A stretch of 64,000 nucleotides of DNA from Gilvimarinus polysaccharolyticus (GTDB lineage: Bacteria > Pseudomonadota > Gammaproteobacteria > Pseudomonadales > Cellvibrionaceae), in NCBI RefSeq assembly GCF_001187555.1, contig NZ_LFIJ01000001.1:1-64000 (forward strand). Reading direction: 5' to 3'. Shown here one piece after another: positions 11,180-62,429 of this stretch (position 1 is the stretch's first letter; each line of letters opens with the position of its first letter). The notes beneath the pieces were generated by a model. That model was not told the origin of the DNA, ran no database searches, and saw only the letters and a list, made by a program, of their open reading frames with translations. Both the position numbers and the translations under genes were made by a program.

Positions 11180-12763
11180 ATGTCTAACCCTACGCATCTT
11201 AAAAACGTCCAAAAACGCCGCACGTTTGCGATTATCTCGCATCCCGATGCGGGTAAAACCACGATTACTGAAAAACTATTGCTGTTTGGTAATGCCATTC
11301 AAGTAGGTGGCTCGGTTAAAGGTAAACGTGGGCCGCACGCAAAATCGGACTGGATGACGATGGAGCAGGAGCGGGGTATTTCGGTGACCTCGTCGGTGAT
11401 GCAGTTTCCCTATAAAGAGCGAATCGTTAATTTGCTGGATACACCGGGGCACGAAGATTTCTCGGAGGATACTTACCGGACGTTAACGGCAGTGGATTCA
11501 GTGCTAATGGTGATTGACGGCGCGAAAGGTGTCGAGGATCGGACGATTAAGCTGATGGAGGTGTGTCGCCTACGAGACACCCCTATTTTATCGTTTATTA
11601 ACAAAATGGATCGCGATATTCGCGACCCCATTGAAGTGTTAGACGAAGTTGAGGATGTGCTAAAAATTGCCGCCGCACCGATCAATTGGCCATTGGGTAT
11701 GGGGCGTGATTTCAAAGGCGTTTATAACTTATATACCGATACGATACATGTGTTTGCTTCGGGTTTTGGTCATACAATCCCCCCTGATACGCTTATTAAA
11801 GGGCTCAACAGCCCTGAGGCGAGTGAGTTGTTAGGCAGCGATGCTGATGATATTCGCGAAGAGCTGGAGCTGGTGCGTGGCGCGACTCACAAATTTGATT
11901 TAGATGAATATATGGCTGGGCGTTTAACGCCGGTATTTTTTGGCACGGCGCTGGCCAATTTTGGTGTGCGTGAGATGTTGGACGGTTTTGTTGAATTTGC
12001 TCCTAAGCCTATTGGTCGCGAGACTAAAAGCCATTTTGTGGAAGCCTCGACTGAGGCGTTCAGTGGTTTCGTATTTAAAATTCAGGCCAATATGGATCCG
12101 CGCCACCGTGATCGCATTGCATTTATGCGCGTCTGTTCAGGTGTGTACAGCAAAGGCATGAAGATGCGTCATGTGCGTTTAGGCAAAGACGTTAAAATAT
12201 CCGACGCCGTTACTTTTATGGCGGGCGATCGTGAATCGGTAGAAGAGGCCGTGGCCGGTGATATTATTGGGCTGCACAATCACGGGACTATTCAGATCGG
12301 TGATACTTTTACCGAAGGCGAAGATTTAAAATTTACCGGGATACCACACTTTGCGCCTGAGCTGTTTCGGCGTATTCGATTAAAAGACCCTCTTAAGACC
12401 AAGGCGCTGCAAAAAGGTTTGCAGCAGTTGTCTGAGGAAGGCTCGACACAGGTATTCTTTCCGCTCAACAATAACGATATTGTGGTCGGAGCTGTGGGTG
12501 TATTGCAGTTTGAGGTTGTGGCCTATCGTTTAAAAGACGAGTACAAGGTAGAGGCTATTTACGAGCCGGTTAACATTGCTACCGCGCGCTGGACTGACTG
12601 CGATGACGCTAAGAAACTAGAGGAGTTTAAGCACAAGTGTGCTGACAACCTCAGTATTGACGGCGGTGGTCACTTAACCTACCTAGCGCCTACGCGAGTT
12701 AATTTGTCGCTCGCCGAAGAGCGTTACCCCAGTGTAGAGTTTAGATCAACGCGGGAACATTAA
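11180..12763 (+). CDS. prfC: Peptide chain release factor 3
   Basis: Translational GTPase of 527 residues that removes RF1/RF2 from the ribosome after peptide release. G1 HPDAGKTT, G3 DTPGHEDF and G4 NKMD are present, and the protein ends in STREH, matching the E. coli QTREH terminus. ATG 11180 ([10 protein letters not shown]) gives the family length (E. coli 529); an in-frame upstream ATG at 11117 would add 21 non-conserved residues. It stands alone and is followed by a strong palindromic terminator. Confidence 0.95.
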
Positions 12764-12814
12764 GTTAAGCATTAGCGTCATGTGGACGTTTGATTTAGCG
12801 GGTTACCCTAAGAC

Positions 12815-12850
12815 AACCAAAAAGCGCGGCCTAGGCCGCGCTTTTTGGTT
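12815..12850. terminator. Bidirectional terminator, perfect 36-base palindrome
   Basis: Bases 12815-12850 are an exact palindrome with an AAAAAGCGCGGCC / GGCCGCGCTTTTT stem, giving a U tract on both strands. It terminates prfC on the plus strand and the convergent TonB-domain gene on the minus strand, whose stop codon overlaps its last base. Confidence 0.9.
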
Positions 12851-14082
12851 TAGTTTTGTTGCAAGGTAAACGTGATGGGAATGGTGAATTCGTGAACTTG
12901 ACCCGTAATGAGTGCAGGCACTTCGGGGAAAGGCACAGCATCTTGTACGGCGCCTAGTGCCTCATTGTTTAGAAGTTTATGATCAGTTTCTTCAATTAGC
13001 ATCGAATTCAGTAGCTCACCATTGCGATTAATGGTGATAGCAATACGAATAGAGCCCTCGTAGCCGCGTTGCATAGCGCGACGTGGGTAGCTAATTTCCG
13101 CTTGAATTTGACGTACTAAGTTTGAGAAGTAACGCTGGTTGGCCAGCAGTGATTCGGCGGTAAAGATTGGTACGAAATCTTCATCACTTTCATCAAGCGG
13201 CTCAGGCTCATTAAGCGCAATCGGTGCGACGCTGCTTGATGAGCTACTAGAGATCGGTGCGGGGCCTTCAATTTGCGCTATATCATCGCTGGTGCTGCTA
13301 GCGGAAGCGGCAGTATTGGCGGTTGGTGCGGCTGGAATTTCAATTTTTGGAACACTGATCTGTGCAGTATCAGGAATACTAACGGGCGCGCTTGCCACGA
13401 CTGGTGCAGGTGTAGGCTCTGGCGCAGGTGCTGGTACAGGCTCTGGTTTAGGCGCTGGTTTAGGCGCTGGAGCCCCCCACAATGCAACTTGATCGACTCG
13501 TGCAGGCGTTGGGTTAATGCTGTCGTAACGGTCGACGAGTGAGGCGCTAACATCACCGCTGACCAATAGTTGTTCCCGATAGGTTGATGAAAGCGGTACT
13601 CGACCGAGCCATGTGCTTAGCAGTAAGCCAAAGAAGTCGTCATCGGCAATAGTGCCAAGGTTAACGTCATCGACACTAATAACAACGCCTTGGCCTGGAG
13701 TTAAGGAAAACACCACATGGTCGTCTTTTTGCAGACGCTCTTGAAAAAGCTTAGTGAAGCTCACCATATTGTCCGCTTGCTCGGTGAGGGCGTTGCCGCG
13801 AATATTGATGGCCATGCCTTCTATCCACATGCGACTAAACTTACGCGCGGCAATACCTCTATCCGCGGTAATCTTTAGCTCCATGCGCATAGCTTGGTTG
13901 GCGGCCATGAGTGTGCTGGCATCGCTGCTGAGCGTATCGCTGTATATGGCACCAATAAACTGATCTCGACCGAGTTCTTGGTGTAGCGCCATGCCGTTTA
14001 ATAAAGGGGCTGCCTGTACTAGATTAGCACCTAGTACAAACAGTGATAGAATCCAAAAAACAGGGGCTCTGAGTATGCACAT
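12850..14082 (-). CDS. Chalcone-isomerase-like domain fused to a TonB C-terminal domain
   Basis: A 410-residue exported protein. Residues 1-24 are a signal peptide. Residues 25-200 resemble the chalcone-isomerase-like domain of bacterial envelope proteins (block RMELKIT...RKFSRMWIEGMAIN). Residues 205-310 are a Pro/Ala/Ser-rich spacer with PAPKPAPKPEP repeats, as in TonB. Residues 320-410 are a TonB C-terminal fold (ISYPRRAMQRGYEGSIRI, then VPFPEVP). Normal TonB has an N-terminal membrane anchor that binds ExbBD; here the N terminus is a cleavable signal followed by a globular domain, so it may act in the periplasm without the proton-motive complex. Function is not established. Confidence 0.7.
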   Translation of the reverse strand: MCILRAPVFWILSLFVLGANLVQAAPLLNGMALHQELGRDQFIGAIYSDTLSSDASTLMAANQAMRMELKITADRGIAARKFSRMWIEGMAINIRGNALTEQADNMVSFTKLFQERLQKDDHVVFSLTPGQGVVISVDDVNLGTIADDDFFGLLLSTWLGRVPLSSTYREQLLVSGDVSASLVDRYDSINPTPARVDQVALWGAPAPKPAPKPEPVPAPAPEPTPAPVVASAPVSIPDTAQISVPKIEIPAAPTANTAASASSTSDDIAQIEGPAPISSSSSSSVAPIALNEPEPLDESDEDFVPIFTAESLLANQRYFSNLVRQIQAEISYPRRAMQRGYEGSIRIAITINRNGELLNSMLIEETDHKLLNNEALGAVQDAVPFPEVPALITGQVHEFTIPITFTLQQN

Positions 14083-35153: not shown

Positions 35154-37493
35154 ATGCAACGCCGACAATTTATCAAGTTGACAGCGTCAGCTGGGCTGGG
35201 TGCGAGCATCGTGCCCAGCTTGGCTGCACTTGCCGCCGCTGAACGATCCTCTGCGGTGGCTATGCCCACCGACTTTTTAGCCATCGAAAACAATCACCAA
35301 ACGTGGCTGGGCCGCGACTTTTGGGCTAACCGCTTGCAGGACTGGCAGGCGAATAGTGGCCGTATCGAGTGTGTGCAAAGTGATGAGAGTTACGAGGTGC
35401 GCACGGTATCGCTGTTAACCCGCGAGTTAACCGAGGCGCACAAGCCGGCCCGTATTCGCTTAACGGTAGGTGCCTTACAGCCGGGCAAAGCGGGCTTTTG
35501 TGGCCTGTTGCTGGGCGTGGGAACAGGTCAGCTAGATTACCGCGCCAGTGCTTTGGCGCAGCGCTTTTCTGGTGCTGGCGGCGGTTTTATGGCTACGCTT
35601 AACAGTCAGGGCGAACTGGGTTTTCAGGATTTTTCGGAGGCCAAAAACACCTTGGCGTTTGAGTCACTAACGCGCCCTGGGGCATCACCGATTGGTGAGT
35701 TAGGGGATCGGGCAGTGGTGCTCGACTGCCATATTGACCCTGTCGCTGACGGCCGATTTGATGTGCGGTTAATTGCGTTGGATGCAAAAACCGAGCTCGA
35801 AATCGGTTTCGCCGTACGCACTGATGTGTCGCCTGACGAATTAATGGGCGGGGTTATGCTGGTGTCTTCGACACCGGCTAAGCAGCCGGGTACGGGCTGG
35901 TGGTTTAAAAACATTGCCACCGCCGGCGATAAAATTCTTGTCGAACCTAACCGTGCTGAAGGCCCGGTGTTAGGTTGTTTGTATAGCCTAAACCAGCGTG
36001 TGATGAAGCTAACCGCGCAGTTTTTTCCGCTCAATACGGACGCGTATCCCAACGCCCAACTACAGCTTAAAAGTGCCTCGGGCGAGTGGCAAACACGGGC
36101 TGTTGCGGCGATTGAAGATGGTTTTGTGGCGCGCTTTCGGGCCGACGATTGGGATGCTTCGCAGGCGGTAGATTATCGAATTGTAATCCCTGGAGATAAT
36201 CAGTATCCAGCTTTTACCGGACAGTTTAAACAAGATAGCGCGAGCCCCGACGAGCTAAAAGTGGGGCTGTACTCTTGTATTATCCCGACGGCCAAATCAC
36301 TTGATGAAGGCCATTATAAAAAGCTGATTCCCGAAGAGCGCGAGTTGGGCCGCTATACCCCAGACAATATTTTCTTTCCCCATAACGAGCTGGTTAGCAA
36401 CAGTGCTACGCACGACCCCGACCTCTGCTTGTTTGTCGGTGACCAGTACTACGAGACTTATCCGACGCGCTACGGCCGCGATACGCCCCAAGCCAAGTTA
36501 GATACCTTATACCGTTGGTATTTGTGGCTGTGGGCGTTTCGCGATATGGCCCGCAATCGGCCCTCGATTGTGTTGGTGGACGATCACGATGTGCTGCAGG
36601 GCAATCTGTGGGGTAATGCCGGTGTATCCGGTGGCCCTAAAGAGGAGGACGGCGGCTTTAAATGGGATTTAGATTTGATGCGGATGGTGTACCGCGTGCA
36701 GTGCAGCCATAATCCTGATGCCTATGATCCTACCCCCATTAACGGTTGTATCCCCGTGTACTACGGTTCGTTTGTGTACGGTGGGGTTAACTTTGCGTTT
36801 GTAGAAGATCGCAAATTTAAAACCGCGCCCGATTACGAGCCCGACCCCGAAACCACCAGTGGCGTGCTTTTGGGTACACGTCAGGAGCAGTTTTTAGAGA
36901 ACTGGGCGAACTCGCGCCCAGGTATGCCTAAAGCGATTATTACTGCGTCCATGTGGGGTTCACCGCAAACGGACGAAAAAGGCGAGCCGTTGCTTGATTA
37001 TGATGCCAATGGTTATCCACCCGACGGCCGCCGGCGCGCTATTGCTTTGGCGAAAAAAGCGCAGGCGGTAGTGCTATCGGGCGATCAGCATTTGGGCATG
37101 TTAGCCGAGCAGTGCCTCGACTCGTTTGACGACGGCGTGTTGTTCTTTTCCGGGCCGGCTTCGGCGGCTTTTTGGCAGCGTTGGTTTGAACCGGCTAGAG
37201 CGCTCGACAATCAGCGCAATGACGATCCAAACACAGGTAATTTTGTCGATACCTTTGGCAATAAAATGCGAGTGTTGGCCGTCGCCAACCCCAAAATTAG
37301 CCACGCCGACTTTCAGGACGATAACACTACCTGGGGCAAATTTTTGGCAGATCGGCAATTAAAAAGTGAAGGTTATGGTTTGGTTCGATTCAGACCGGCC
37401 AAAGGCGAAGTCACTTTTGAATGCTGGCCTTGGGATGCGGACCCGTCACGTGATCAGCAATTTTCCGGTTGGCCATACCGATATAAGTATTAA
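35154..37493 (+). CDS. Tat-exported PhoD-like metallophosphoesterase
   Basis: A 779-residue protein with an N-terminal twin-arginine signal (QRRQFIKL, then a hydrophobic stretch to about residue 30). The N-terminal half has a beta-rich domain of unknown role (about 40-350). The C-terminal half is a PhoD-like metallophosphoesterase: FVGDQYYETYPTRYG, VLVDDHDVLQGN and VVLSGDQHLGM supply Asp/His metal ligands. It starts at the first base after the GH50 stop. PhoD proteins are Ca/Fe phosphodiesterases, but the tight coupling to an agarase suggests a polysaccharide-linked substrate. No experimental function is known to me for this arrangement. Confidence 0.75.
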   Translation: MQRRQFIKLTASAGLGASIVPSLAALAAAERSSAVAMPTDFLAIENNHQTWLGRDFWANRLQDWQANSGRIECVQSDESYEVRTVSLLTRELTEAHKPARIRLTVGALQPGKAGFCGLLLGVGTGQLDYRASALAQRFSGAGGGFMATLNSQGELGFQDFSEAKNTLAFESLTRPGASPIGELGDRAVVLDCHIDPVADGRFDVRLIALDAKTELEIGFAVRTDVSPDELMGGVMLVSSTPAKQPGTGWWFKNIATAGDKILVEPNRAEGPVLGCLYSLNQRVMKLTAQFFPLNTDAYPNAQLQLKSASGEWQTRAVAAIEDGFVARFRADDWDASQAVDYRIVIPGDNQYPAFTGQFKQDSASPDELKVGLYSCIIPTAKSLDEGHYKKLIPEERELGRYTPDNIFFPHNELVSNSATHDPDLCLFVGDQYYETYPTRYGRDTPQAKLDTLYRWYLWLWAFRDMARNRPSIVLVDDHDVLQGNLWGNAGVSGGPKEEDGGFKWDLDLMRMVYRVQCSHNPDAYDPTPINGCIPVYYGSFVYGGVNFAFVEDRKFKTAPDYEPDPETTSGVLLGTRQEQFLENWANSRPGMPKAIITASMWGSPQTDEKGEPLLDYDANGYPPDGRRRAIALAKKAQAVVLSGDQHLGMLAEQCLDSFDDGVLFFSGPASAAFWQRWFEPARALDNQRNDDPNTGNFVDTFGNKMRVLAVANPKISHADFQDDNTTWGKFLADRQLKSEGYGLVRFRPAKGEVTFECWPWDADPSRDQQFSGWPYRYKY

Positions 37494-49567: not shown

Positions 49568-50680
49568 TTAAATCCCCGAACCTCCAGTTTGCTGAAAGGT
49601 TCCCGCATCCAATATTTGGCGGCGCGCTTTATACTGGCAAATATAATTCCAGTTCCAGCTGCTGTCGTATTTGTGGCACAGCCCCCAAGTAATACCCGTT
49701 AGCGGATCATCTGAAGATTCATAGCCAGGCTTGCGGTACAGCCCCATGGCCTCTGGCGCGCCTTTTATGTGCGACATAATGTCAAAGTTTTCACCATCCG
49801 GCGCCCACTGGCAGGTGTTTTTCTCTGGTCCATCGGTTGTGAGGATACAGGCAATACCATTTTGGTAGTGCCATACAGCAACTTCGTGACCACTATTGGT
49901 GATCGGGTTGAGCGGTGACTTGACGTAAGGCCCAAGGATGTTGTCGGCAACGGCAACGCCGTGCTTGATTTCGCGCCCACCAAAGTTCATGCCTTCACCC
50001 ATAATTTCACCCTTGTAGTATAGGTAAAACTTTCCTTGATAGAACATTAGGCAAGGGTCGTGCACTTTATGGCTGTCAAAATCACCGCGCTCGATAACAT
50101 GAAACCGGTTATCCTCATCGCCGCGCCAGATGCCGTTATCAGCAGGACTTAAGATGGGCTCGGCCGAGGTGTGCCAAGGACCGAATGGTGAGTCACTGTG
50201 GGCAATGGCAATGTGTTCTTTGCTGCGATTTAGGTAGGGCGCCTGAACAGTTTGGTATACCAAATAGTAACGGTTATCGTGAGCTAGTACTTCGGGGGTA
50301 AATACCGCGCGGTCGTCGTGTCGGCCTGCTGGACCTGGTTGCACAGCCGGGCCTTGCTCATCCCAGTGGTAACCGTCTTTGGATGTCGCATGCCAGACTT
50401 CGGTTTTATCCCAGGGAAAGACTTTATCTTCTGGGTTGCTACTGCCAAAGCCTACGGTCTCGCCTTCGCCTTTGGTGTACCACACATGGAGTAGCTTGCC
50501 GACTTTGATAACCGCACTTGGGTCGCGGCGAATAACGCCCTCTTGATAGGCGAAGTCGCCAGCTAGCGGGCTAATATCAAACTCGACGACCCAGTGGGCG
50601 TCTTTGTTGTCGTAGCCGCGTTCAATGGCTCGCAGACTGGCTTTGCTTAGAGGCTTATCGATGGATAGATTGTTTGACAT
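49568..50680 (-). CDS. GH117 neoagarobiose hydrolase (alpha-1,3-(3,6-anhydro)-L-galactosidase)
   Basis: A 370-residue five-bladed beta-propeller enzyme without a signal peptide, so cytoplasmic. It cleaves the alpha-1,3 bond of neoagarobiose to D-galactose and 3,6-anhydro-L-galactose. Family blocks are [15 protein letters not shown] (residues 29-43), [28 protein letters not shown] with its Asp, and [15 protein letters not shown] with the His thought to be the acid. The N-terminal arm ([13 protein letters not shown]) is the segment swapped between subunits in known dimers. Its start overlaps the KDG kinase 3' end by 26 bases, tying release of the anhydro sugar to its last dedicated step. Confidence 0.92.
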
Positions 50681-51626
50681 GGAAACCTTCTATTGAATTA
50701 GCTGATTGAACTGAATCCAGGGGTGATGGCATTGATTGTTTGGGAATAATAGCACCAGTTTGGCTGATTACCTTGGCGGATAATCGGCACCCTTCGGTAA
50801 GGGCTTGGGGGATACTGCCCCCGCTGATACGGCTAGCCAAATAGCCGGCATTAAATGAATCGCCAGCAGCGGTTGTATCTACTACGGTGGCAACCTTAGG
50901 TACGGCAAAGGTGCCACGTTTGCCTGCATGAATATAAACGATAGTATCGGGGCCGTTTTTAATAATAAGCTCTTGAATATTGTAGGGCTCAAGTAGTTGG
51001 CAAACTTGTTTTTCGGTTGATACATTAAAGAGTTTGTGTAAGTCATCCATGCTAGGCAGTGCTATATCGGCAACGCTAAAAGCCCACTGATAAGTTTCTT
51101 CGGCTTCGCTCGGTGTGCTCCATAGCGTGGGTCGAAAATTAGCATCAAAGATGATCTGTGTCCCCTGGGCCTTTATGCCTTCAGTCCAGCGTTTAAAGGT
51201 GGTCCGACTCTGCACATCCAAAATGGCAAGACTGATACCGCTAAAGTATAAGTATTCGGGGCGGACTAACGAGGCTAAATCGATGAGGTTAACCGTTTCG
51301 CGTGCGGCTGACTGATTGCGCCAGTAAAAAAATTCACGTTCACCCTGTTCATCGTTATCGATCAAATATACCCCGAGATGTTTATGCGGGTGAGTGGCAA
51401 GGTGGCTAGTGTTGACGCCTTCAGACTGTAACGATTGGCGCAACCCTGCACTGAGTTTGTCGCCACCAATTGCCGACAGCATGCTAACTTGTACCTCAGT
51501 GGCGACGAGTCGAGCAAGATATACTGCAACGCTAAAAACATCGCCGGCATAAGCCTTGCGCAACAGGGAGCCCTGCTGGGAGGTTAGTTCTAGCATTGGC
51601 TCGCCAAAAATCATGATGTTGCTCAT
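50655..51626 (-). CDS. 2-keto-3-deoxygluconate kinase (PfkB family)
   Basis: PfkB-family sugar kinase of 323 residues. The ATP/anion-hole motif [15 protein letters not shown], with the catalytic Asp, is near residue 250. The substrate-side blocks GEPMLEL and [10 protein letters not shown] are as in KdgK. It should make 2-keto-3-deoxy-6-phosphogluconate from the KDG formed by the SDR at 30417; the KDPG aldolase is not in this window. ATG 51626 is chosen over a TTG at 51632. Upstream is a perfect GntR operator. It is the first gene of the KDG kinase-GH117 operon. Confidence 0.85.
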
Positions 51627-51693
51627 AGACAAGAGGTCCTAACAGTTTGCTGCATTGTTGGCTGCGCGATAGTTAATATTTCTATATTTGTTA

Positions 51694-51986: not shown

Positions 51987-53072
51987 ATGACGATAACTTC
52001 CTCTCGCGTTACCACCTCGGTGGTGGGCCACTTAAATGATGGTCAAAAAATCTGTGCTTATACACTTAATAATCATCATGGTGTGCAGGCGCGTATTATC
52101 GATTTTGGTGCAACCTTAATGGAATTGTTGGTGCCAGATCGCACGGGGAGCGTGAATAATGTCGTGTTAGGCTATGACACGCCGGAGGATTATCAGAAAG
52201 GCAGTTCTTACTTGGGGGCGGTAGTGGGACGAGTGGCAAACCGTATTAAAGACGGACGTTTTAGTTTGGCGGGTAAAGCCTATTCTTTGGTTAAAAATGA
52301 CAACAACCTTAACCATTTGCACGGCGGTGAGGTTGGTTTTGATAAACGTCTGTGGCGGGCCGAGATATTAAATGAGCCTGCTGTTGCGGCTGTGGCTTTT
52401 CATTTAACCAGTGATGATGGTGATGAGGGGTATCCCGGGACTTTGTCTGTTAGTGTGATTTATCGGCTACACAATGATAATACCTTGAGTGTTGAGTATC
52501 AGGCGAGCACCACCGCGACCACAGTTGTTAATCTGACTCAGCACAGTTATTTTAATTTGGCAGGGGCTCCTTTTGCTCATGTAGGTGGCCACGAGTTACA
52601 GCTTAATGCAAGTCGTTTTACTCCTACTGATGATCATGGCATCCCAACCGGTGAGCAGCTACCGGTTCCAGAGGTTTTGGATTTTTGTGTGGCCAAACCA
52701 TTAAGTTGTGCTCTTGATAGTGGAGATGCGCTACTGCAAGCCAGCCGAGGCTTGGACCATAACTTTTGCATTGATATCGAGCCTGGGACTAGTCGTAAAA
52801 GGCGAGTGGTACGTGCGGTGGCTGAAGTGTACGACCCTAGCTCTGGCCGCCGTATGACGGTTAGGTCCAGCTATCCCGGAGTACAATTGTATACCGGCAA
52901 CTACTTAGCTGAAGACGCTTGTCATGAGCGCCAACCATTTTTGCCTCAGAGTGGTTTTTGTCTAGAGTGTCAGTATTATCCTGATGCGCCCAATCGGTCC
53001 GAATTTGACAGCATTGAGCTGCGCGCGGGGCAGTTGTACCGTGAGCTTACCAGCTACCATTTTTCTTGGTAG
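51987..53072 (+). CDS. galM: Aldose 1-epimerase (galactose mutarotase)
   Basis: A 361-residue mutarotase that converts beta-D-galactose to the alpha form used by GalK. Substrate-binding NRIKDGRFSLAG, LNHLHGGEVGFDKRLW and the catalytic His of LTQHSYFNLAG near residue 190 are visible, and the catalytic Glu is in CLECQYYPDAPN near 330. It is separate from galETK but in the same island. A few extra residues at the N terminus and no signal peptide point to the cytoplasm. Confidence 0.92.
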   Translation: MTITSSRVTTSVVGHLNDGQKICAYTLNNHHGVQARIIDFGATLMELLVPDRTGSVNNVVLGYDTPEDYQKGSSYLGAVVGRVANRIKDGRFSLAGKAYSLVKNDNNLNHLHGGEVGFDKRLWRAEILNEPAVAAVAFHLTSDDGDEGYPGTLSVSVIYRLHNDNTLSVEYQASTTATTVVNLTQHSYFNLAGAPFAHVGGHELQLNASRFTPTDDHGIPTGEQLPVPEVLDFCVAKPLSCALDSGDALLQASRGLDHNFCIDIEPGTSRKRRVVRAVAEVYDPSSGRRMTVRSSYPGVQLYTGNYLAEDACHERQPFLPQSGFCLECQYYPDAPNRSEFDSIELRAGQLYRELTSYHFSW

Positions 53073-53093: not shown

Positions 53094-54122
53094 TTATCGT
53101 TTAGTTAGTTTTAGGCCCATCAGGGTGTCGTGCGCTGTGATATATAAATAATCTTCCTTGGTATTTAATGCGCAGTTAGAGGTTAGGCGTCCGGTGTTTA
53201 TTTTAGCCAGTAGTTTTCCCGACTGATTAAATAGCCAGACGCCTCCGGGTGCGCTGGCAAAAATTGCTCCGCTACTGTGTACAGCCATGCCATCGGGCAC
53301 GCCATCCGTGTTTTCTTGTTTGCTATTGTTGGCATTAAAAAATACGCGCTTGTTGCTAAGCGAGCTGTCTTCAGGGTTTATGTCGTAAGCAAGCCAGATA
53401 GGGTTTTCCCGATCAGATAAAGCCACATAAAGTGTTTTGTTGTCGGGGGATAGGGCGATACCGTTAGGTGCGCCGACCGAGTCGTCGAGCAGGATTAACT
53501 CGCCATCGGAAGTTAATCGGAAGATTCCATAGTATTCAAGTTCGCGCCGTGGATCGCTAGCTCCGCCCATTAAACCGTATGCAGGGTCGGTAAAATAGAT
53601 GCTGCCATCAATTGCCAGTACCGCATCATTAGGGCTGTTTAAACGCGAGCCTTGAAAGTCGCCAGCGAGGGTTCGGTAGTTAGCGCTAGGCGTTGCAAGC
53701 GGCGCTTTCATGACCGCGACTCGTCGATCACCTTGTTGCAGTAGCACTAGTTGGCCGTTGCTGTCTAACAGTAAGCCGTTAGACCCGCCGTTGTCGTCAT
53801 GCTCAAACATATTGGTTGCACCGGAGCGTGCAAGATATTGACTGGTGCCTTCCCCTGGTGTGTATTTATGAATGACATTATTGGGGATGTCTGAGAATAA
53901 TAGGTAACCCTCATCGATCCAAAGCGGACCTTCGGACCAGGCATAGCCCTCGCCCAAAATATCAAGAGACGCTTGTGGGTTAAGGTATTGTAGTGCTTCA
54001 GGTGACAGTATCTCGATTACGTTCAACGGTTTTGCTTTTTCATTGTGTGAGCTATTAATACAGCCGCTAAGCAATACCGAGCTGATAAGTGATGCTGCGC
54101 ACAGTAGTAAATACTTTTTCAT
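53094..54122 (-). CDS. SMP-30/gluconolactonase-family lipoprotein
   Basis: A 342-residue six-bladed propeller protein with a lipoprotein signal (VLLSGC, Cys21), so envelope-located. Metal ligands of the SMP-30 family are recognisable in WSEGPLW, NSPNDAVL and GAPNGIALSPDN. Family members hydrolyse sugar lactones. In this setting it might open an aldonolactone formed outside the cytoplasm, which is inferred. Its start overlaps the SapC-like stop by four bases (ATGA), making it the last gene of the halogenase-SapC-SMP30 unit. Confidence 0.78.
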   Translation of the reverse strand: MKKYLLLCAASLISSVLLSGCINSSHNEKAKPLNVIEILSPEALQYLNPQASLDILGEGYAWSEGPLWIDEGYLLFSDIPNNVIHKYTPGEGTSQYLARSGATNMFEHDDNGGSNGLLLDSNGQLVLLQQGDRRVAVMKAPLATPSANYRTLAGDFQGSRLNSPNDAVLAIDGSIYFTDPAYGLMGGASDPRRELEYYGIFRLTSDGELILLDDSVGAPNGIALSPDNKTLYVALSDRENPIWLAYDINPEDSSLSNKRVFFNANNSKQENTDGVPDGMAVHSSGAIFASAPGGVWLFNQSGKLLAKINTGRLTSNCALNTKEDYLYITAHDTLMGLKLTKR

Positions 54123-54841
54123 TCGTGTGATTCCTGTTTTTTATCAATAAGCTTGCTGATGTTGCCCATAGAGGCAAGCATTAAGTAACACGCTTGTAAG
54201 TAGCCAAGCTTGTGAAGTTCGCTAACAGCCTCGGGCTCTAAGGTTGCTAAAGTTTGCTCGTTAATGGTGTATAAGCCTTCGTAGTTCTTTTGCTCGCCGG
54301 AGGCTAAAGTGATGTTGATTTTTGCGGCCTCAAGCAGGTTTTTATCTGCTAGGGTTTGAATAAACCTTGAGGTGATTTGGCTGCCTTCGATAAGCTTGGC
54401 GAGTAAACGTTGCATCTGCTTAAAATATTCCGTGGGCTGGCCTGCATCATCAAAGATGGCCTCGCCTTGATCGGCAGATTGGCTAATCCGAGCGCTATCC
54501 ATATCCACCATGGCAACACTGCGGGAACTGTTGTCGTTTAGCGTATGGTTGGCAACTAAAAACGGTTGGCGTCGTACATGCAGTGGGATATAGCTGGCAT
54601 GCCAGTTGTCACCATTAAGGTAGAGGTTCTCACCTTCACCAAATCCCAGTAAAGCGTACAGTCCAAACTGTCCGGTTTCGGTGTCTTTGATAAAACAGAT
54701 TGGGTAGTCCAGCACAAGGCTGCGTAGCTCGTCGGCGATAACCGGCACAAGGTGTACGGCCTCGCCAAATTGAGCCCCGCGTTTGGTAATAACTCGTAAG
54801 TCGTGATGTTTTTTTGCGTCTAACACTACAGGGTTGGCCAT
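54119..54841 (-). CDS. SapC-family protein
   Basis: A 240-residue cytoplasmic protein of the SapC family (HHDLRVITKRGAQFGEAVHLVPV near the start, here quoted in part by position 13-36; then YPICFIKD and LYALLGFGEGENLYL). The name comes from a Campylobacter S-layer locus, but most proteobacterial members sit beside TonB receptors and flavin halogenases and have no proven function. AAGGAGG five bases before ATG 54841 fixes the start over 54862. It lies 26 bases after the halogenase and overlaps the SMP-30 gene. Confidence 0.78.
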   Translation of the reverse strand: MANPVVLDAKKHHDLRVITKRGAQFGEAVHLVPVIADELRSLVLDYPICFIKDTETGQFGLYALLGFGEGENLYLNGDNWHASYIPLHVRRQPFLVANHTLNDNSSRSVAMVDMDSARISQSADQGEAIFDDAGQPTEYFKQMQRLLAKLIEGSQITSRFIQTLADKNLLEAAKINITLASGEQKNYEGLYTINEQTLATLEPEAVSELHKLGYLQACYLMLASMGNISKLIDKKQESHE

Positions 54842-54867
54842 GTTAGCCTCCTTAATTAACAAATAAT

Positions 54868-56415
54868 TTATACTTGTGACAGGCCGTGCTGATAAATCTT
54901 ATTTAGTAGTTCTCGGTGATCGGGCAGGGCGCGGGCAAGTTGTTGGCTTGTCTGTCGATTTTGGATAAATTCAAATTCAGCACGCTGCTGTTGCTCTTTA
55001 GATAGCCCTCGTTTCCCCATGTCGGTTGTAAAACCCATGCCGTACAGTACGTATTGGTAGCTGGCGGCGGGAAACACTTCTATCGCCTGATCAAAGTCAC
55101 TGTCCCAAGGGGCTTGAAATTGCCATAACGCTAATAACTCTTGTAAATCTGAGGGAATGTTGCTGCGGTTATCGCGCCAAAAGTCACTGTCGTCGCGTTT
55201 GCTGAGACAATAATGTAATTTAAGAAAATCAATAATCCTTTGCCAGCGGTACAAAAAAGTTTTGTTAAAACGCTTGGCGACGATATCCATAGTGCTGCGA
55301 GTTGCTGGTAATTGACTGGCAATCATATCGGCTGAAATTTCCACCAACACTAACGCGGAGGCTTCTAACGGTTCTAAAAAACCGGCCGACAAACCTACTG
55401 CGACACAGTTGTTTTGCCAAAACTTAGTCCTGTGACCTGGTTCTATGGGAATTTCGCGCACGCTTAATTTGTCTATATCGTGTCCTGACTGAGCCGCGTA
55501 ACGGGCAAGATTTTGATACGCTTGCTCGGCACTGCCGTGAGCGCTAGAGAATACGTGTCCAACCCCGCGTCTTGTAGGTAAACCTATATCCCAGATCCAG
55601 CCGTTATCCTGCGCCGTAGAGATAGTATAAGAGGCAATGGGAGTGTCGGGGCTGGGGGAGGGGAGGTGGACCGCAAGAGCTCGGTCAATAAATAAAACAT
55701 CTTTGCAGGATTTAAACGGAACTTGGTAGTGTTGCCCTAATAAACGAGATCTAAAACCACTGCAGTCAATAAATAATTCGCCGCTTATAGCGCCGTGGTT
55801 ATCGGTGGTTAGCGAGCTAATGTCGCCATTGTCGTGGCTGTTTACCTGAGTAACCTCATCGCTAATATGCCGGACACCTAAAGTGTTTACACAATGACGG
55901 CGCAAAAAGTTGGCAAAGGCGCCAGCATCCAAATGATAGGCGTAATTGGCCACTGCAGCGTACTCTGGGGTGGTAATATTTTTGGGTGCGAGCCCATTAA
56001 TGCAAAGTGTGTCTTGGGGGCAAACAGCATCGGCAAACGATGTGCCGGTGTTGCCATTAAGCCAATGTGGCGCAAGATTAATGTCACTGAAACTACGCGG
56101 CAGCATTAAAGGGTGAAAGTAGCTGTCTTTGTGCTCGCCGGTGGTCCATTGGTTAAATTGTGCACCTTGCTTAAAGGCTACGTGGCACTCGCGAATAAAA
56201 TCTGTCTCGCGGATTCCCATTTTACGCAGGGTTGCTCGCATGGTCGGCCAAGTGCCTTCGCCCACCCCTACGGTAGGTACTTTAGGAGATTCTATTAAGG
56301 TGATGGTGGGTGGTGTTGCATGTTCTTTTTTGACTCGGGCGGCGATCGTTCCTGCGCACAGCCAGCCTGCGGTTCCTCCTCCTAAGATAACGATAGAGTG
56401 TATAGGTTGGTGCAT
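54868..56415 (-). CDS. Flavin-dependent tryptophan-halogenase-family protein
   Basis: A 515-residue flavoprotein of the tryptophan halogenase family. The FAD loop GGGTAGWLCAG starts near residue 12, then VGVGEGTWP near 51. The Lys of AFKQGAQFNQW matches the catalytic Lys79 of PrnA/RebH, the WxWxIP-like motif reads WIWDIGLP, and GFLEPLEAS supplies the conserved Glu. The key residues suggest a working enzyme, but members found next to TonB receptors have no established substrate, and no natural-product genes are nearby. It is first in a three-gene unit with SapC and SMP-30 and lies 148 bases after the TonB receptor. Confidence 0.82.
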   Translation of the reverse strand: MHQPIHSIVILGGGTAGWLCAGTIAARVKKEHATPPTITLIESPKVPTVGVGEGTWPTMRATLRKMGIRETDFIRECHVAFKQGAQFNQWTTGEHKDSYFHPLMLPRSFSDINLAPHWLNGNTGTSFADAVCPQDTLCINGLAPKNITTPEYAAVANYAYHLDAGAFANFLRRHCVNTLGVRHISDEVTQVNSHDNGDISSLTTDNHGAISGELFIDCSGFRSRLLGQHYQVPFKSCKDVLFIDRALAVHLPSPSPDTPIASYTISTAQDNGWIWDIGLPTRRGVGHVFSSAHGSAEQAYQNLARYAAQSGHDIDKLSVREIPIEPGHRTKFWQNNCVAVGLSAGFLEPLEASALVLVEISADMIASQLPATRSTMDIVAKRFNKTFLYRWQRIIDFLKLHYCLSKRDDSDFWRDNRSNIPSDLQELLALWQFQAPWDSDFDQAIEVFPAASYQYVLYGMGFTTDMGKRGLSKEQQQRAEFEFIQNRQTSQQLARALPDHRELLNKIYQHGLSQV

Positions 56416-56563
56416 AGTGGCAGCCTCTTATCATTGTTTTTAATTGCCGGCGTTTAATAAATACTTCTTTCTGAAAAGCATTTATTAAACTCGCTGATAA
56501 AAAGAGGGTCGACGCTGCAGCGACGCCCCTTAAGTCAGTTACGGCTTACTTTAACCCAAATGG

Positions 56564-59362
56564 TTAGAAGCGAGCACGTACGCCAATGTTATAACGCGCA
56601 CCAAACTGTTGTGCGGCTAATAACTGCTCGCTATAACGACCATGACTGCGGGTGGTTTCTTCGGTAATGTTTAACCCCTCCACAAATACTGAAATATTGT
56701 CGTTAATATCGTAGCTGGCATTGATGTCCCACTGACCGTAGGCCTCAGTAAAGGTTGGCTCATTAAAGTTTTGTGGTTGACCGGTACTTAGCAAGAAGTC
56801 ATCGCGCCAGTTGTAGGCTAGTCGAGCTTGGAACGAATCAGTTTCATAAAACCCGATTAAGTTGGCTGAATCACTTAAGCCAGTTAATGCTAAGGTTTGA
56901 TCGAAACTGCTAATGTCGTACTTGGCATCGCTGTTAACCAATGTGGCGTTGACGATGGCACCAAAGCCGGAGTCGCCAAACATGTGCTGTACGTTTAGCT
57001 CCCAACCATTGATCTCAGTGCTGTCTAAGTTACCTGGGGTACCAACATCCCAAGTGACGATTGGATCGCCAGCTTGTGATAAACAGGCCGGATTTGGTGT
57101 GCTGCCGCCATCGGGGCAACCTGGTCTAGCGTTCACACTTGAGTCACGTAATGGTTCACCGTTAACGTCGAGAATCTGACGTTTTTCGACGGTTGAGCCG
57201 ATGAAGTTATCAACAAACTTTTTAAAGTAGCCGATAGAAGCGTAGCTGCCATCATCGTAGTACCACTCAACAGCCAAGTCGAGGTTTTCAGACTCATAGG
57301 GTAATAAACCTGGATTACCTTGGGTCGCGTTAAACGGGCCGTTGGGGCGCGCTACGCTGATTTGAGTGGCTGGAAACATGGCGGAAACGTCTGGACGAGC
57401 CAGGGTTTTGCTGTACGAGAAGCGGCCTACCAAGCTTTCGTTTAAATCGATTTTTACGTCTAAGTTGGGCAAAAAGCGTGTGTAGCCACCGGTTAACGTT
57501 TGAGCCGATGGCGTGTCATCGTACAGTACTTGCAGCTCTTCTGTGTTGCGGTAGTTTAGATTCGTAATACCGTTTTGTATGGAGGTGCCGCTGGTGTCGG
57601 TATCTTCGTAGCGAACTCCGGCGTTAAGCGCAATAGGGAATCCGTTAAACTCGGTTTCAAAATTAAAGGTAACATAGGCTGCGAGAGTTTCTTCTTCTAC
57701 CTTGTTGATCGTCGGTGGTGCTACGTAGTAATCGCCTTGAGCGTCAAGAATATCAATGAATTCTTTAGCGTCGTAGCTAACAAGGAACGGCAGTAACTGA
57801 TCGGCACCGTCTAATTGATCACCAAAGTCTCCTAGTGGGTTAACATCTAAATCTAGGCTTGAAATGTCGGCGTTAACAAACTCAAAGGTAAGAGTGCTGT
57901 ATGCGTCAACATCGTAAGTGGTGTTTTCTAAGCCAAAATGAATCGAACGTAGGGCGCCACCGTCACCGTTGTCCCATTTTCCGCCAATTTTAAACTGCGA
58001 AATAGTGTTTTCAATTTCGTTGCCACGGCGTTGGTATAAATCGGTAACGATGTTTTGGGAGTCAAAAGCACCCGCACCGGTTGCCGCAATTAAGTCTGAG
58101 TCATCATAGGTGATTGTAGGTAATGATGTGCCGTTGAGTTGAGCGCCAATGTCAACCATGCCTACGCCATCGATGCGGGGGTTTTTTAGGTTGGCAATAG
58201 TTTCTGCTTGTATGCCATCGGGTTGCGAGTGTGACGTTGAGTTGTGGGCATCAAAAGTCAGTTGTAGATTCTCAGTTGCCTCCCACTCAACGTTTAAGCC
58301 AATGGAGTCGTTCTCGGTATAGTAGTGATAGTCCCAAGCCCAAAAATTTAATTCATCGTTAGCGTTTGCAATGCTAGTGGAGGTACCGTTGCTGTCGGTA
58401 ACGCTGGTTGGGTTATCAAACCAATAACTGGTTCGAGTCATCGCGATGTTTTCTTCATAGCGCGACAGATTGTAATCTAAGGTGGCACGCAAGTTATCGA
58501 GTGGTGCAAATTGTAAAACTACCTGGGCATTTTCACGAGTGCGTTCGTGATTGGATACATCTGCGTCAAAAGTGTACGGAGTCCAAAAGGATTTTGTTGG
58601 ATTGGTCTCGGTATTGATGGCGCTGGTGTCGGCAGAGCCAAGGTTGCGAACCCACGCTTGTGTGCCAACACGTTGAATTTGGCTGTCGCGTTCAGAATAA
58701 GAGCCCGAAACTAAGATGCCGAACATGTCATCAGCGAAAGTGGTGCTGATCATGCCAGAGACTTCTGGGGTGACGTCGTCGCCAGTTTTATTACTGGTAT
58801 CCATAACGCCTTTGACGCTAGCGGCGGCGGTAAAACCATCGTAATCAAAAGGGCGAGCTGTCTTGATATTGATAGTCGCACCAATGCCACCGGAGCTAAT
58901 ATCGGCACGACCAGTTTTGTAAACTTCCACACCAGAGACACTTTCGGCGGCTAGTTCTTGGAAGTTAAAGCTGCGGTTTACACCATCCGATGCAAGTGCT
59001 GAGGAGTTTGGCATTTGGCGACCATTCATGGTCACTAAGTTAAATGATGGTCCAAAACCACGAACAGTAACTTGGTTACCTTCGTTGTTTGAGCGGTCGA
59101 TAGATACCCCAGTAATGCGCTGGAGTGACTCCGCCAAATTCGTGTCGGGAAACTTACCGATGTCTTCCGCCGAAATAGCGTCGACGACACCGCTGGCATC
59201 GCGTTTGATATCCATAGCGTCGGTAAGAGACCCGCGAATGCCAGTAACTACGACTTCTTCGAGCATTTCTATGTCGTTACTTTGTGCGGATGCATTGAAG
59301 CTCGATACGGCCAGTATTGCGGCCGATAGGGCACTTAAGTTGAATCGCGTGTGTGTAGCCAT
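56564..59362 (-). CDS. TonB-dependent receptor (Xanthomonas/Caulobacter type), copy 1
   Basis: A 932-residue outer-membrane receptor with a signal peptide to about residue 27, a plug domain starting at the TonB-box-like EEVVVTGIRGS, SAEDIGKFPDTNLAESLQRITGV, then a 22-strand barrel ending in an aromatic RVRARF terminus. ATG 59362 is preceded by GGGAGAG; the longer frame to 59533 runs through the promoter. It should take up agaro- or porphyran-oligosaccharides. It is paralogous to the receptor at 59625-62429. Tandem GntR-type sites lie in its upstream region. Confidence 0.9.
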   Translation of the reverse strand: MATHTRFNLSALSAAILAVSSFNASAQSNDIEMLEEVVVTGIRGSLTDAMDIKRDASGVVDAISAEDIGKFPDTNLAESLQRITGVSIDRSNNEGNQVTVRGFGPSFNLVTMNGRQMPNSSALASDGVNRSFNFQELAAESVSGVEVYKTGRADISSGGIGATINIKTARPFDYDGFTAAASVKGVMDTSNKTGDDVTPEVSGMISTTFADDMFGILVSGSYSERDSQIQRVGTQAWVRNLGSADTSAINTETNPTKSFWTPYTFDADVSNHERTRENAQVVLQFAPLDNLRATLDYNLSRYEENIAMTRTSYWFDNPTSVTDSNGTSTSIANANDELNFWAWDYHYYTENDSIGLNVEWEATENLQLTFDAHNSTSHSQPDGIQAETIANLKNPRIDGVGMVDIGAQLNGTSLPTITYDDSDLIAATGAGAFDSQNIVTDLYQRRGNEIENTISQFKIGGKWDNGDGGALRSIHFGLENTTYDVDAYSTLTFEFVNADISSLDLDVNPLGDFGDQLDGADQLLPFLVSYDAKEFIDILDAQGDYYVAPPTINKVEEETLAAYVTFNFETEFNGFPIALNAGVRYEDTDTSGTSIQNGITNLNYRNTEELQVLYDDTPSAQTLTGGYTRFLPNLDVKIDLNESLVGRFSYSKTLARPDVSAMFPATQISVARPNGPFNATQGNPGLLPYESENLDLAVEWYYDDGSYASIGYFKKFVDNFIGSTVEKRQILDVNGEPLRDSSVNARPGCPDGGSTPNPACLSQAGDPIVTWDVGTPGNLDSTEINGWELNVQHMFGDSGFGAIVNATLVNSDAKYDISSFDQTLALTGLSDSANLIGFYETDSFQARLAYNWRDDFLLSTGQPQNFNEPTFTEAYGQWDINASYDINDNISVFVEGLNITEETTRSHGRYSEQLLAAQQFGARYNIGVRARF

Positions 59363-59522: not shown

Positions 59523-59548
59523 ATTGTCAACAAGATATTGTAAACAAT
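59523..59548 (-). promoter_or_regulatory. Tandem GntR operators before TonB receptor 1
   Basis: CTTGTTGACAAT on the minus strand (59523-59534) and ATTGTAAACAAT on the plus strand (59537-59548) are centred 14 bases apart. The first contains TTGACA (59525-59530), which with GATTAT at 59502-59507 (17-base spacing) makes a good minus-strand promoter, so the operator would cover the -35 box. Confidence 0.65.
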
Positions 59549-59624: not shown

Positions 59625-62429
59625 TTAGAAGGTGGTGCGCACGCCGACGGTATAGCGTGAACCGTACTGTTCGGCATCGATTAATTGCTCGCTGTAGCGG
59701 CCGTGTCGTCTAACGCTTGCCTCGCCGACATTTAGCCCTTCGATAAACACCGAAATGTGCTCGTTAAGTTCATAGCTGGCGTTAATATCAATCTGGCCAT
59801 ATTCTTCAGTGAAGGTGGGTTCCGTACCGCTTTGATGTTGGCCAGTACTTAATAAGAACTGATCACGCCAGTTGTATGCGACACGAAGTTGCAGGCCGTT
59901 TTTCTCGTAAAAACCAATCAGATTGGCTGTGTCACTTAAGCCAGGTAGTACTAGGCTCTGATTGTACGAGTTGACGTCATATTCAGCCTCGCTGTCGACC
60001 ATGGTTGCATTAGCAATAAGGCCAAAGCCGCTCTCGCCAAACATGTGCTGCAGGTTTAGCTCGATACCATCTACCGAGGTGCTATCGGCGTTGGTCGGGG
60101 TGATGGTTGACCAGCTTATGATTGGGTCTTGTGGCTGAGATAAGCAGGCCGAGCTGGATGTGTCAGGGCATCCGGGACGCGGATTGATGCTCGGGTCGCG
60201 CAGTGGCTCACCATTTACATCGTTAATTTCAGTCGGTATCTGGAACGCGGTGAGGAAGTTATCCACTTTTTTGTTGAAGTAGCCTGCCGATACATAGCTA
60301 CCCGAGGCGTAGTACCACTCCAGCGATAGGTCGATGTTCTGTGCCTCGTAGGGCGATAGCTGGATATTACCTTGAGTGGCATAGTAAGGGCCACCGGGGC
60401 GCGCGCTGGTAATGTTGAGCGATGGAAACAGTCCGGATAAATCAGCTCGTGCCAATGCTTCACTATAAGACAGTCGCGTTACCCAGTCGGAGGTTAAATC
60501 AATTTTGATATCTAGGTTTGGCAGCGTGTGTGAATAGCTGAACTCGTCCGAGTAAGTGATGTTAGTGTCGCTGTAAATGGGTGTGAGTCCACTTTTGTTG
60601 GTGTACTCTATGGCGCTGATGCCAGGCTGAATTACTTGGCCGGTTACGGTGGTGTCTTCATAGCGTAGTCCGGCGTTAATGGTGACCGGCAGACGCATTA
60701 AAAAGGTATCGATATTCAGCGATACAAAGGCGGCTACGGTGTCTTCTTCCACACGGTTCTGGTTGGCGGGAGACTGGATTAATTGATCCTGTGTCGCAAT
60801 AAGCGCTAAAAGTTCGTCGGCGCTGTAATTGATGAGCATAGGAAATAGGTTTTCGGGGTTATCAAGCTGATCACCAAAGCCTCCTAATGAATAGAATTCG
60901 ACGGCTAGGTCACTGATGTCCATATTGAGCCCGTAATTGGCATCGGTGGTGTGAAGCGCCTTAATGTCGTAAACGGTGTTCTCGATACCTAATTCTATAC
61001 TGCGTAAGCCATTTTCAACATCGATGTTCCAAGTACCTGAAAGCTGGTACTGCTTGATATTATTTTCAACTTCGTAGCCGCGTTGCTGGTAAAGGCCTGC
61101 AGATACATTGTTTTTATCAAACGCGCCCGCGCCGGTCTGGCTGATCAGGGCCGAGTCATCGTAAATGAGCTTAGGCAGTGCTGTGCCCTCGATGTCTGCA
61201 CCAATATCCACTAGGCCAACTGGTGGTACCGCATACCAGTCGATAGGGGTGTTAAGGCTGGTGAGGGTTTCGGCGGGTAGACCATCAGGTTGCGAGTGAG
61301 AGGTGGAGTCGTGCGCGTCAAACTTAATGGCCAGTTGATCGTTGACATCCCACTCGATGTTTAACCCTAGTGACTCGTTTTCAGTGCGGAAATGATAATC
61401 CCAGGCCCAAAAGTTAAGTTGGTCGTTAGGGTTGCGAATTTGGATTGCAGTGCCATTGGTGTCGGTTACGCTCTGTGGGTTGTCGAACCAAAAGCTGGTG
61501 CGATTCATGTCAATGTCTTCTTCATAGGTAGACATGACATAGTCAAGCGACGCGGTGAGTGAATCAGAAGGCGCAAACTGCAAAACGACTTGACCATTCT
61601 CGCGGGTGCGGTAGTGGTTAGCTACTTCTACTTCAAATGTATAAGGTGCCCAGTAGTCACGTGCAGGGTTTTGTTCTGTGTTGATGGCGCTGGTGTCTGC
61701 CGTCCCCAAGCCTTTAACCCAGCCTTGGCTTCCCACTCGCTGGCTCTGACTGTCGCGTTCGGCGTAGGAGCCAGCAACTAATACACCTAGCATATCGTCA
61801 AAGAAGGTGGTGCTGATCATACCCGATACTTCTGGGGTTACGTCGCTGCCTTTTTCATTGCTGGTATCCATCATACCTTTTAGGCTGATCGTAGATGTAA
61901 ACTCATCGTAGTCAAATGGGCGAGCGGTTTGAATATCGATAGTGGCGCCGATTCCTCCCGATGGGAGTTCTGCGCGACTGGATTTGTAAACTTCGACTCC
62001 AGATACACTTTCGGCGGCAATCTCTTTAAAGTTAAAGCTGCGGTTAACGCCTTCGGAATTAAGTGCCGCAGAGGTAGGCATGTGTCGCCCGTTTAAGGTC
62101 ACTAGATTGAAGGTGGGGCCAAAGCCTCGAACGGTAATTTGCTTGCCTTCATTGTTTGAGCGGTCGATGGATACGCCGGTTAAGCGCTGCATCGATTCGG
62201 CCAGATTGGTATCAGGGAGTTTACCAATATCTTCAGCCGAGATGGCCTCTACGACACCATTTGAGTCGCGTTTAATATCCATAGATTCGGTCAAAGCGCT
62301 GCGGATACCCACAACGATAACTTCGTCAAGTAGGGCTGGGTTGTCTTGCTGTGCCCAGCCATTATTTGCGGTCATAGTCATAAGCGCTGCGAACAGCGCT
62401 GTTAATTTAAAGCGTACGGATGTATCCAT
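59625..62429 (-). CDS. TonB-dependent receptor (Xanthomonas/Caulobacter type), copy 2
   Basis: A 934-residue outer-membrane receptor. The signal peptide is about 1-26, the plug starts at LLDEVIVVGIRSA with SAEDIGKLPDTNLAESMQRLTGV, and the barrel ends in VGVRTTF. It is closely similar along its length to receptor 1 (shared blocks include FGPTFNLVTLNGR vs FGPSFNLVTMNGR and the WAWDYHFRTENES region), so the pair arose by duplication. The GAGGAGAG ribosome-binding site and short leader are also alike. It follows the partial GH50 gene; two GntR sites sit between them. Confidence 0.9.
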   Translation of the reverse strand: MDTSVRFKLTALFAALMTMTANNGWAQQDNPALLDEVIVVGIRSALTESMDIKRDSNGVVEAISAEDIGKLPDTNLAESMQRLTGVSIDRSNNEGKQITVRGFGPTFNLVTLNGRHMPTSAALNSEGVNRSFNFKEIAAESVSGVEVYKSSRAELPSGGIGATIDIQTARPFDYDEFTSTISLKGMMDTSNEKGSDVTPEVSGMISTTFFDDMLGVLVAGSYAERDSQSQRVGSQGWVKGLGTADTSAINTEQNPARDYWAPYTFEVEVANHYRTRENGQVVLQFAPSDSLTASLDYVMSTYEEDIDMNRTSFWFDNPQSVTDTNGTAIQIRNPNDQLNFWAWDYHFRTENESLGLNIEWDVNDQLAIKFDAHDSTSHSQPDGLPAETLTSLNTPIDWYAVPPVGLVDIGADIEGTALPKLIYDDSALISQTGAGAFDKNNVSAGLYQQRGYEVENNIKQYQLSGTWNIDVENGLRSIELGIENTVYDIKALHTTDANYGLNMDISDLAVEFYSLGGFGDQLDNPENLFPMLINYSADELLALIATQDQLIQSPANQNRVEEDTVAAFVSLNIDTFLMRLPVTINAGLRYEDTTVTGQVIQPGISAIEYTNKSGLTPIYSDTNITYSDEFSYSHTLPNLDIKIDLTSDWVTRLSYSEALARADLSGLFPSLNITSARPGGPYYATQGNIQLSPYEAQNIDLSLEWYYASGSYVSAGYFNKKVDNFLTAFQIPTEINDVNGEPLRDPSINPRPGCPDTSSSACLSQPQDPIISWSTITPTNADSTSVDGIELNLQHMFGESGFGLIANATMVDSEAEYDVNSYNQSLVLPGLSDTANLIGFYEKNGLQLRVAYNWRDQFLLSTGQHQSGTEPTFTEEYGQIDINASYELNEHISVFIEGLNVGEASVRRHGRYSEQLIDAEQYGSRYTVGVRTTF

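Follow-up and report, generated by a model that had tools for sequence, protein, structure and literature searches.

The receptors CciT, PiuA and Fiu are each encoded in a conserved operon with an oxygenase (CciO, PiuC and YbiX, respectively), and the function of that oxygenase is not settled, as far as the available text of PMC12004943 goes. Among the flavin halogenases, BrvH, Xcc4156, MibH and VirX1 belong to group C, which stands apart from the tryptophan halogenases (excerpts of PMC8269204); the natural substrates of BrvH and of three Xanthomonas halogenases are reported as unknown (excerpts of PMC7336383). Here we analyse a stretch of 64,000 nucleotides from Gilvimarinus polysaccharolyticus (contig NZ_LFIJ01000001.1, positions 1 to 64,000; hereafter the window), in which the genes of a TonB-dependent receptor, a flavin halogenase-type enzyme that we call HalA, and a SapC protein follow one another. 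Receptor, HalA and SapC form a real, widespread and co-inherited module. No description of it was found among the open-access papers that our searches listed, subscription journals lying outside their range.

Receptor, HalA and SapC are inherited together

On the minus strand of the window, the list of open reading frames (ORFs) places four genes consecutively: the receptor (56564-59362; 932 amino acids from the likely ATG, the ORF itself opening at 59533), HalA (54868-56415; 515 amino acids), SapC (54119-54841; 240 amino acids, with a possible upstream TTG start at 54862) and an SMP-30/gluconolactonase-like lipoprotein (53094-54122; 342 amino acids). Gene calls are mechanical ORFs, and families were assigned with profiles built in this analysis. 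The placement and strands are those given in an earlier note on this DNA, and all four of its family assignments score above their cut-offs: the receptor reaches 640.7 bits against TIGR01782 (627.3 for the second receptor of the window; curated cut-off 310), HalA 399.7 bits against PF04820 (curated cut-off 21), SapC 239 bits against PF07277 (cut-off 28.9, over profile positions 1-220 of 220) and SMP-30 140.5 bits against the SMP-30/gluconolactonase profile (cut-off 26.3). The note also had the genes coupled by overlaps. This is true of SapC and SMP-30, which share 4 bases (54119-54122), but not of HalA and SapC, spaced by 5 bases with the TTG start or 26 bases with the ATG; no other neighbouring pair overlaps, and 148 bases separate the receptor from HalA.

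The best 80 of 584 confirmed HalA-relative loci in GTDB species, a set biased to close relatives, served for comparison (locus labels begin with L). Within 6 kilobases (kb) of HalA, a receptor is found in 74 of the 80, SapC in 77 and both in 73, several of the misses being contig ends. The recurrence beside TonB receptors that had been claimed for the whole cluster thus holds strongly for receptor, HalA and SapC and fails for SMP-30, present in 3 of 80 loci. In 140 genomes sampled from the class, SapC occurs in 18 and HalA-type matches above 600 bits in 3 (own genome included), all of which carry SapC.

Patristic distances, compared over 71 triples, correlate at 0.82 for HalA and receptor, 0.80 for HalA and SapC and 0.87 for receptor and SapC; the maximum over 500 permutations, made for the HalA-receptor pair only, was 0.12. 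Thirteen members of an agar branch, picked from the receptor tree, form a single clade with no other row inside in each of the three trees (0.998 for HalA, 1.0 for the receptor, 0.982 for SapC). They are the window, two same-genus loci, and loci of Cellvibrio, Neiella, Paraglaciecola, Pseudocolwellia, Colwellia, two Shewanella, Thalassotalea, Pseudoalteromonas and Sphingopyxis (L036). Such agreement is compatible with vertical descent as well as with co-transfer.

The sugar genes around the module vary

Agar genes, detected by similarity to window proteins at 100 bits or more, occur in 9 of the 10 agar-branch loci of the 80-locus set, against 0 of the 70 others. Around eleven sphingomonad-type and Caulobacter loci (68 proteins) we counted glycoside hydrolase (GH) families GH3 (6), GH43 (5), GH9 (3) and GH95 (2), alpha-galactosidase (5), arabinofuranosidase (3) and GntR/FCD regulators (3). 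Twelve loci mostly with Cupin_8 and HalB, a second halogenase label used below, gave GH16 (5), GH3 (4), LacI (3) and GH9 (2) among 69 proteins. For twelve DUF6445 loci (72 proteins) the tally holds FecR (11) and sugar transporters (6), with no glycoside hydrolase among the 25 families listed. These counts took 68 of 83, 69 of 75 and 72 of 73 listed ORFs, respectively, antisense or spurious-looking frames and all of L084 having been dropped, and cover the first 25 of 46, 96 and 111 families. We infer the sugars used at the non-agar loci from these neighbouring genes.

The FecR-type genes recur from one DUF6445-branch locus to another, for instance in L038, L042 and L044, which suggests that the receptors of this branch may signal.

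HalA keeps its catalytic-type residues

The flavin-binding (FAD) loop GxGxxG reads GGGTAGW in HalA, and the catalytic-type Lys82 (codon 56170-56172) and Glu351 (codon 55363-55365, both on the minus strand) are in place, as the earlier note had seen; the two residues are K and E in 106 of 106 aligned HalA. The WxWxIP motif is altered to WIWDIG. At the place of its proline, Gly278 in the window (codon 55582-55584, minus strand), the alignment of 106 HalA has G in 93, P in 7, A in 5 and S in 1. Proline is absent from all 91 HalA with SapC within 5 kb, and the 7 that bear it are all without SapC; a further 8 have neither (p = 3e-7, uncorrected for kinship). The seven proline-bearing HalA may belong to one lineage and so do not count as seven independent cases. 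With its changed motif, HalA of the window is classed as halogenase-type and not as a proven halogenase. Since WxWxIP has been suggested to block monooxygenase action (excerpts of PMC5945002), hydroxylation by HalA is possible, halogenation being unproven.

Identity with a free-tryptophan halogenase was rejected: the HPFER and YHG.E-type motifs, printed for 5-halogenases in the available part of PMC8269204, find no match in HalA, and the window has HPLML. No signal peptide is evident on HalA by eye. Its nearest solved chain is 2pyx_A (575 bits).

The genome itself has 19 PF04820 matches, 16 of which align as halogenases. One of the 16 has lost Lys, Glu and the FAD loop; the other 15 keep Lys and Glu, and by their gene lists 13 of these stand near a receptor similar to that of the window, L015 and L016 being the ones that do not.

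Full-length PF04820-type pseudo-halogenases were met in 9 clusters of 7 genomes, with the Glu lost in 9/9 and the Lys in 8/9. Each is flanked on both sides by a halogenase with Lys and Glu intact and follows downstream of a TonB receptor (L009:10817-12265; L151:2697-4208 and 11490-13007; L164:11386-12846; L174:10792-12345; L194:10832-12331; L205:10980-12437; L207:10728-12260; L219:3177-4658). One ortholog pair has a ratio of nonsynonymous to synonymous substitution rates of 0.16 (0.095 and 0.043 for the flanking active genes), which shows that the protein is under purifying selection; in two further pairs the substitutions are saturated.

Two oxygenase-like families exclude each other beside HalA

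An oxygenase-like gene lies within 6 kb of HalA in 63 of the 80 loci: Cupin_8 alone in 47, DUF6445 alone in 16, both in none and neither in 17. The mutual exclusion has p = 4e-8, uncorrected for kinship; in L100 both families occur farther out, in two successive modules. The agar branch has neither within 4 kb of HalA in any of its 13 members, the window locus included. The Cupin_8 proteins (n=65) conserve HxD and a His further on, and the DUF6445 proteins (n=27) PHxD followed by LHS and RL, patterns that we take to be those of 2-oxoglutarate oxygenases.

DUF6445 is PF20043, a Pfam family of unknown function, and replaces Cupin_8 in the module, as in L010:6502-7203 and L012:11352-12065.

SapC occurs with large exported proteins elsewhere

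The AlphaFold2 model of SapC has a mean predicted local distance difference test (pLDDT) of 96.7. Its fold found no match by Foldseek against the PDB at E 0.001, by VIA-align at Z 2 among 997 chains, or in BFVD at E 0.001. There are 5 SapC genes in the genome.

We took 17 SapC loci without HalA; L228 and L229 proved to be receptor-HalB loci and were dropped, leaving 15, and the orphan L022 from the own genome, whose longest frame is 793 codons, was kept apart. A frame of at least 1000 codons is present in 11 of the 15, compared with 5 of 20 controls of similar length (p = 0.006). When the stretches were widened, five frames next to SapC extended over 3,536 to 5,298 codons and were cut by the end of the stretch. 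RTX-like repeats occur in three loci (L247, L248, L249). Three others (L243, L246, L251) have two-partner-secretion (TPS) domain exoproteins, perhaps the sign of an export pathway reserved for giant adhesins. Among 36 SapC-neighbour proteins scanned, hand-chosen from 65 listed ORFs and tallied for the first 25 of 80 families, ShlB is found in two, HlyD in three and a SecA-like domain in two. An outer-membrane efflux protein is a further neighbour of SapC; no export-type neighbour was found in the remaining loci of the 15. Large exported proteins and secretion genes beside SapC suggest that it serves exported surface proteins.

L243 combines SapC and a TPS exoprotein with HlyD-like, PqqD-domain and SecA-like genes.

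One receptor clade carries a tryptophan at position 314

In the genome, 22 TIGR01782 receptors exceed the cut-off, two rows being one frame. Our sample of 195 receptors of at least 800 amino acids, from 185 loci, joins the own genome, the 80-locus set and chosen places from seven of 22 other genomes. Almost all receptors with SapC within 5 kb (95 of 96) belong to a single clade, which has 112 members and a support of 0.999. Trp stands at position 314 in 95/96 of the receptors near SapC and in 109/112 of the clade, as compared with 1/83 outside it, where the alignment is doubted. The three clade members without this residue (L148, L190, L201) are also without the module. Outside the clade, 35 of 83 receptors also have a halogenase within 5 kb; the linkage of halogenase and receptor thus extends beyond the SapC module.

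In the window receptor, the codon of this clade-specific aromatic residue is at 58421-58423 of the minus strand (codon 371 of the long ORF). The AlphaFold2 model (mean pLDDT 88.6) has Trp314 end a long barrel strand, 291-314, and judging by how short turns and long loops alternate we would place it on the extracellular side, at the outer rim. Other receptor positions look clade-specific as well. One set in which the Trp is invariant had been selected by having it, and alignment A3 draws its rows from the same set; the invariance there is circular and was not used.

The second TIGR01782 receptor of the window (59625-62429, minus strand) stands in tandem upstream of the first, belongs to the same clade and has the same tryptophan; the tandem pair recurs in the same-genus loci L162 and L189.

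The agar locus of the window and SMP-30

Profile scans of window proteins identify a polysaccharide utilisation locus of agar/porphyran type that includes a GH43/GH32-like hydrolase; its polysaccharide setting had been rightly named in the earlier note. Between 24232 and 41908 lie two porphyranase-domain proteins, an Agarase_CBM protein, a major facilitator superfamily sugar transporter, an enolase-superfamily enzyme and dehydrogenases. Nearer to the module are a protein that we label GH117-like (49568-50680, minus strand), a pfkB kinase resembling KDG kinase (50655-51632, minus strand; 275.9 bits against a model cut-off of 400) and an aldose epimerase (51987-53072, plus strand). Another Agarase_CBM protein is found beyond the second receptor (L021:575-2878). 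The names GH50, GH86 and GH117 and their roles in the agar pathway are labels that we assume. A PhoD-like phosphatase of 779 amino acids (35154-37493) lies inside the agar locus and was also detected in L045.

The scans covered 22 proteins of a window that holds 51 ORFs of at least 150 amino acids. No natural-product family is listed among the 22, in keeping with the note, and a natural-product halogenase cluster was rejected for want of any biosynthetic family in this set. Special promoter and terminator signals were rejected as well (promoter-like sites: 10, shuffle mean 13.0; terminator-like sites: 16, shuffle mean 11.3, standard deviation 3.0), and so was the idea that a precursor-peptide gene generally separates receptor and HalA, the gaps there being mostly 30-250 bases.

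SMP-30 has a lipobox-like LSGC, and its best solved chain is 3dr2_A, an exported gluconolactonase. It occurs in L033, L037 and L047 of the 80 loci, all of the agar branch, and in loci of three same-genus genomes; this narrow range led us to reject it as a core part of the module. SMP-30 is probably a catabolic add-on of the agar branch that goes with agar use and not with the halogenase, and we would interpret it as a lactonase in the breakdown of sugars.

Discussion

Because the module is inherited with its receptor amid unrelated sugar-degradation genes, we favour a role at the receptor over one on a seaweed compound; of the earlier suggestion, maturation or sensing for the receptor, it is the receptor-directed part that gains. 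Our preferred reading, a tentative one that we hold to be possible more than probable, is that receptor, HalA and SapC are one inherited unit serving the receptor, in which the enzyme and SapC mature it or help its export. HalA and SapC would act in the cytoplasm on the new receptor, or on a constant companion protein of it, before export. SapC would bind the exported client and help to present or export it, and HalA, with FADH2 and O2, would halogenate or hydroxylate the side chain of an exposed aromatic residue. A second modification may be added in most relatives by a 2-oxoglutarate-oxygenase-like protein of Cupin_8 or DUF6445 type, none being nearby in the agar branch. The receptor of the window would afterwards import agar oligosaccharides. 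We count for this reading that MibH, a group-C halogenase, has a lanthipeptide with a tryptophan as its substrate (excerpts of PMC8269204) and that BrvH and Xcc4156 have open substrate sites (excerpts of PMC7336383). The narrower proposal that HalA covalently marks the rim tryptophan Trp314 before export, assisted by SapC as its client factor and in many loci by a 2-oxoglutarate oxygenase, seems to us doubtful.

Several observations weigh against a receptor-directed module. Modification of the receptor is something that we infer, and action of HalA on an imported ligand would give the same co-inheritance. The orphan SapC of the own genome (L022) has no receptor or halogenase detected beside it. 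The association of SapC with large frames weakens at 1200 codons (9/15 against 4/20, p = 0.019) and further at 1500 (4/15 against 1/20, p = 0.09); in 8 of the genomes the control positions were chosen manually, frames were measured from one stop codon to the next, and L227, among the 15 SapC loci, may hold a chance frame. As for Trp314, it is kept by 14 of the 17 clade receptors without SapC nearby, and the receptor of a SapC-HalA locus, L181, lies outside the clade and does not have it. Ten independent contrasts in SapC presence gave 2 co-changes and 8 unchanged cases (p = 0.5), for which reason Trp314 was rejected as proof of modification. Plain ancestry alone can explain how it marks the clade, and it is a candidate target, no more.

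The main rival, in our view rather unlikely, has HalA, with the 2-oxoglutarate oxygenase where present, modify a compound imported by the receptor. PiuC has been proposed to act on a siderophore monosulfactam imported by PiuA, and the like was considered for CciO (available text of PMC12004943). The co-inheritance of HalA with the receptor fits ligand processing too; yet HalA keeps Lys and Glu in 106/106 while its catabolic neighbours vary by branch. SapC, moreover, has large exported proteins among its neighbours elsewhere, and agar sugars have no aromatic ring. A product of HalA that reports receptor expression or occupancy, a small halogenated or hydroxylated aromatic of indole-like kind, is less plausible still, and we judge it improbable. 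BrvH does brominate indole weakly, indole being perhaps not its natural substrate (excerpts of PMC5945002), and FecR-type regulators make up 11 of the 72 proteins scanned beside the DUF6445 branch. However, among the families listed the regulators differ by branch (GntR/FCD 3/68, FecR 11/72, LacI 3/69), and 15 paralogues in one genome would need many signals.

Equally improbable to us is that SapC and HalA aid receptor biogenesis in a chaperone-like manner, leaving no covalent mark, with redox chemistry incidental. The large exported proteins near SapC would suit such a role, as would the conserved pseudo-halogenases beside other receptors, which show that catalysis can be lost while the fold persists; both catalytic-type residues, however, are retained in 106/106 HalA. 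The earlier note had also considered halogenation or oxidation of an algal compound, which we took as an algal phenol, with SMP-30 as lactonase of the same pathway. In its favour, SMP-30 overlaps SapC by 4 bases and follows it in three same-genus loci and in L033. But SMP-30 is in only 3/80 loci, and HalA-SapC also lies amid hydrolases of plant-polymer or beta-glucan type (in groups of loci that include sphingomonads, a Caulobacter, Massilia and Duganella). With catabolic genes differing so across branches, an algal phenol is unlikely as the common substrate; we consider this pathway very improbable and disfavour algal-compound halogenation as the general role.

Whatever the sugar genes around it, the HalA branch, related to BrvH and the Xanthomonas halogenases, goes together with SapC and a single receptor clade, and often with either of two oxygenase-like types. 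In the search for the halogenase substrate this shifts attention away from small aromatic molecules and to the receptor itself, and for SapC it suggests a function in support of exported surface proteins. Marking of the receptor tryptophan, if true, would provide the native substrate of the HalA branch and a new post-translational modification of nutrient receptors.

Comparison with known systems

The SapC family presumably takes its name from SapC of Campylobacter fetus, at an S-layer export locus. There the partner would be a type I secretion system, whereas the module here has a TonB receptor. The flavin monooxygenase QhpG acts on a protein tryptophan; HalA scores weakly against its profile, with 31.1 bits far under the cut-off of 240, and is not a member.

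HalA belongs to the same superfamily as the group-C halogenases BrvH, Xcc4156, MibH and VirX1. BrvH keeps WxWxIP (excerpts of PMC5945002), whereas SapC-side HalA has G, A or S for the proline. The closest solved chains to HalA are 2pyx, 9lu2 and 9ltb, in which the motif is WxWDIG or WxWDIA; 2pyx, a structural-genomics entry for a tryptophan halogenase, is called an unnamed halogenase from unpublished work in the available text of PMC7336383.

Iron is the ligand class of CciT, and PiuA imports a siderophore compound (excerpts of PMC12004943), whereas the receptors of the module would, by their context, serve sugars. The available text of PMC12004943 mentions neither a flavin halogenase nor SapC for the CciT-CciO type, and the module has both. 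The oxygenase of that type has an oxygenase-like counterpart, Cupin_8 or DUF6445, within 6 kb of HalA in 63 of our 80 loci, and within 4 kb in 0 of the 13 members of the agar branch. In kind, the nearest published system that we met to the receptor-HalA-SapC module is the CciT-CciO receptor-oxygenase pair with its relatives PiuA-PiuC and Fiu-YbiX, as these are presented in the available text of the same report.

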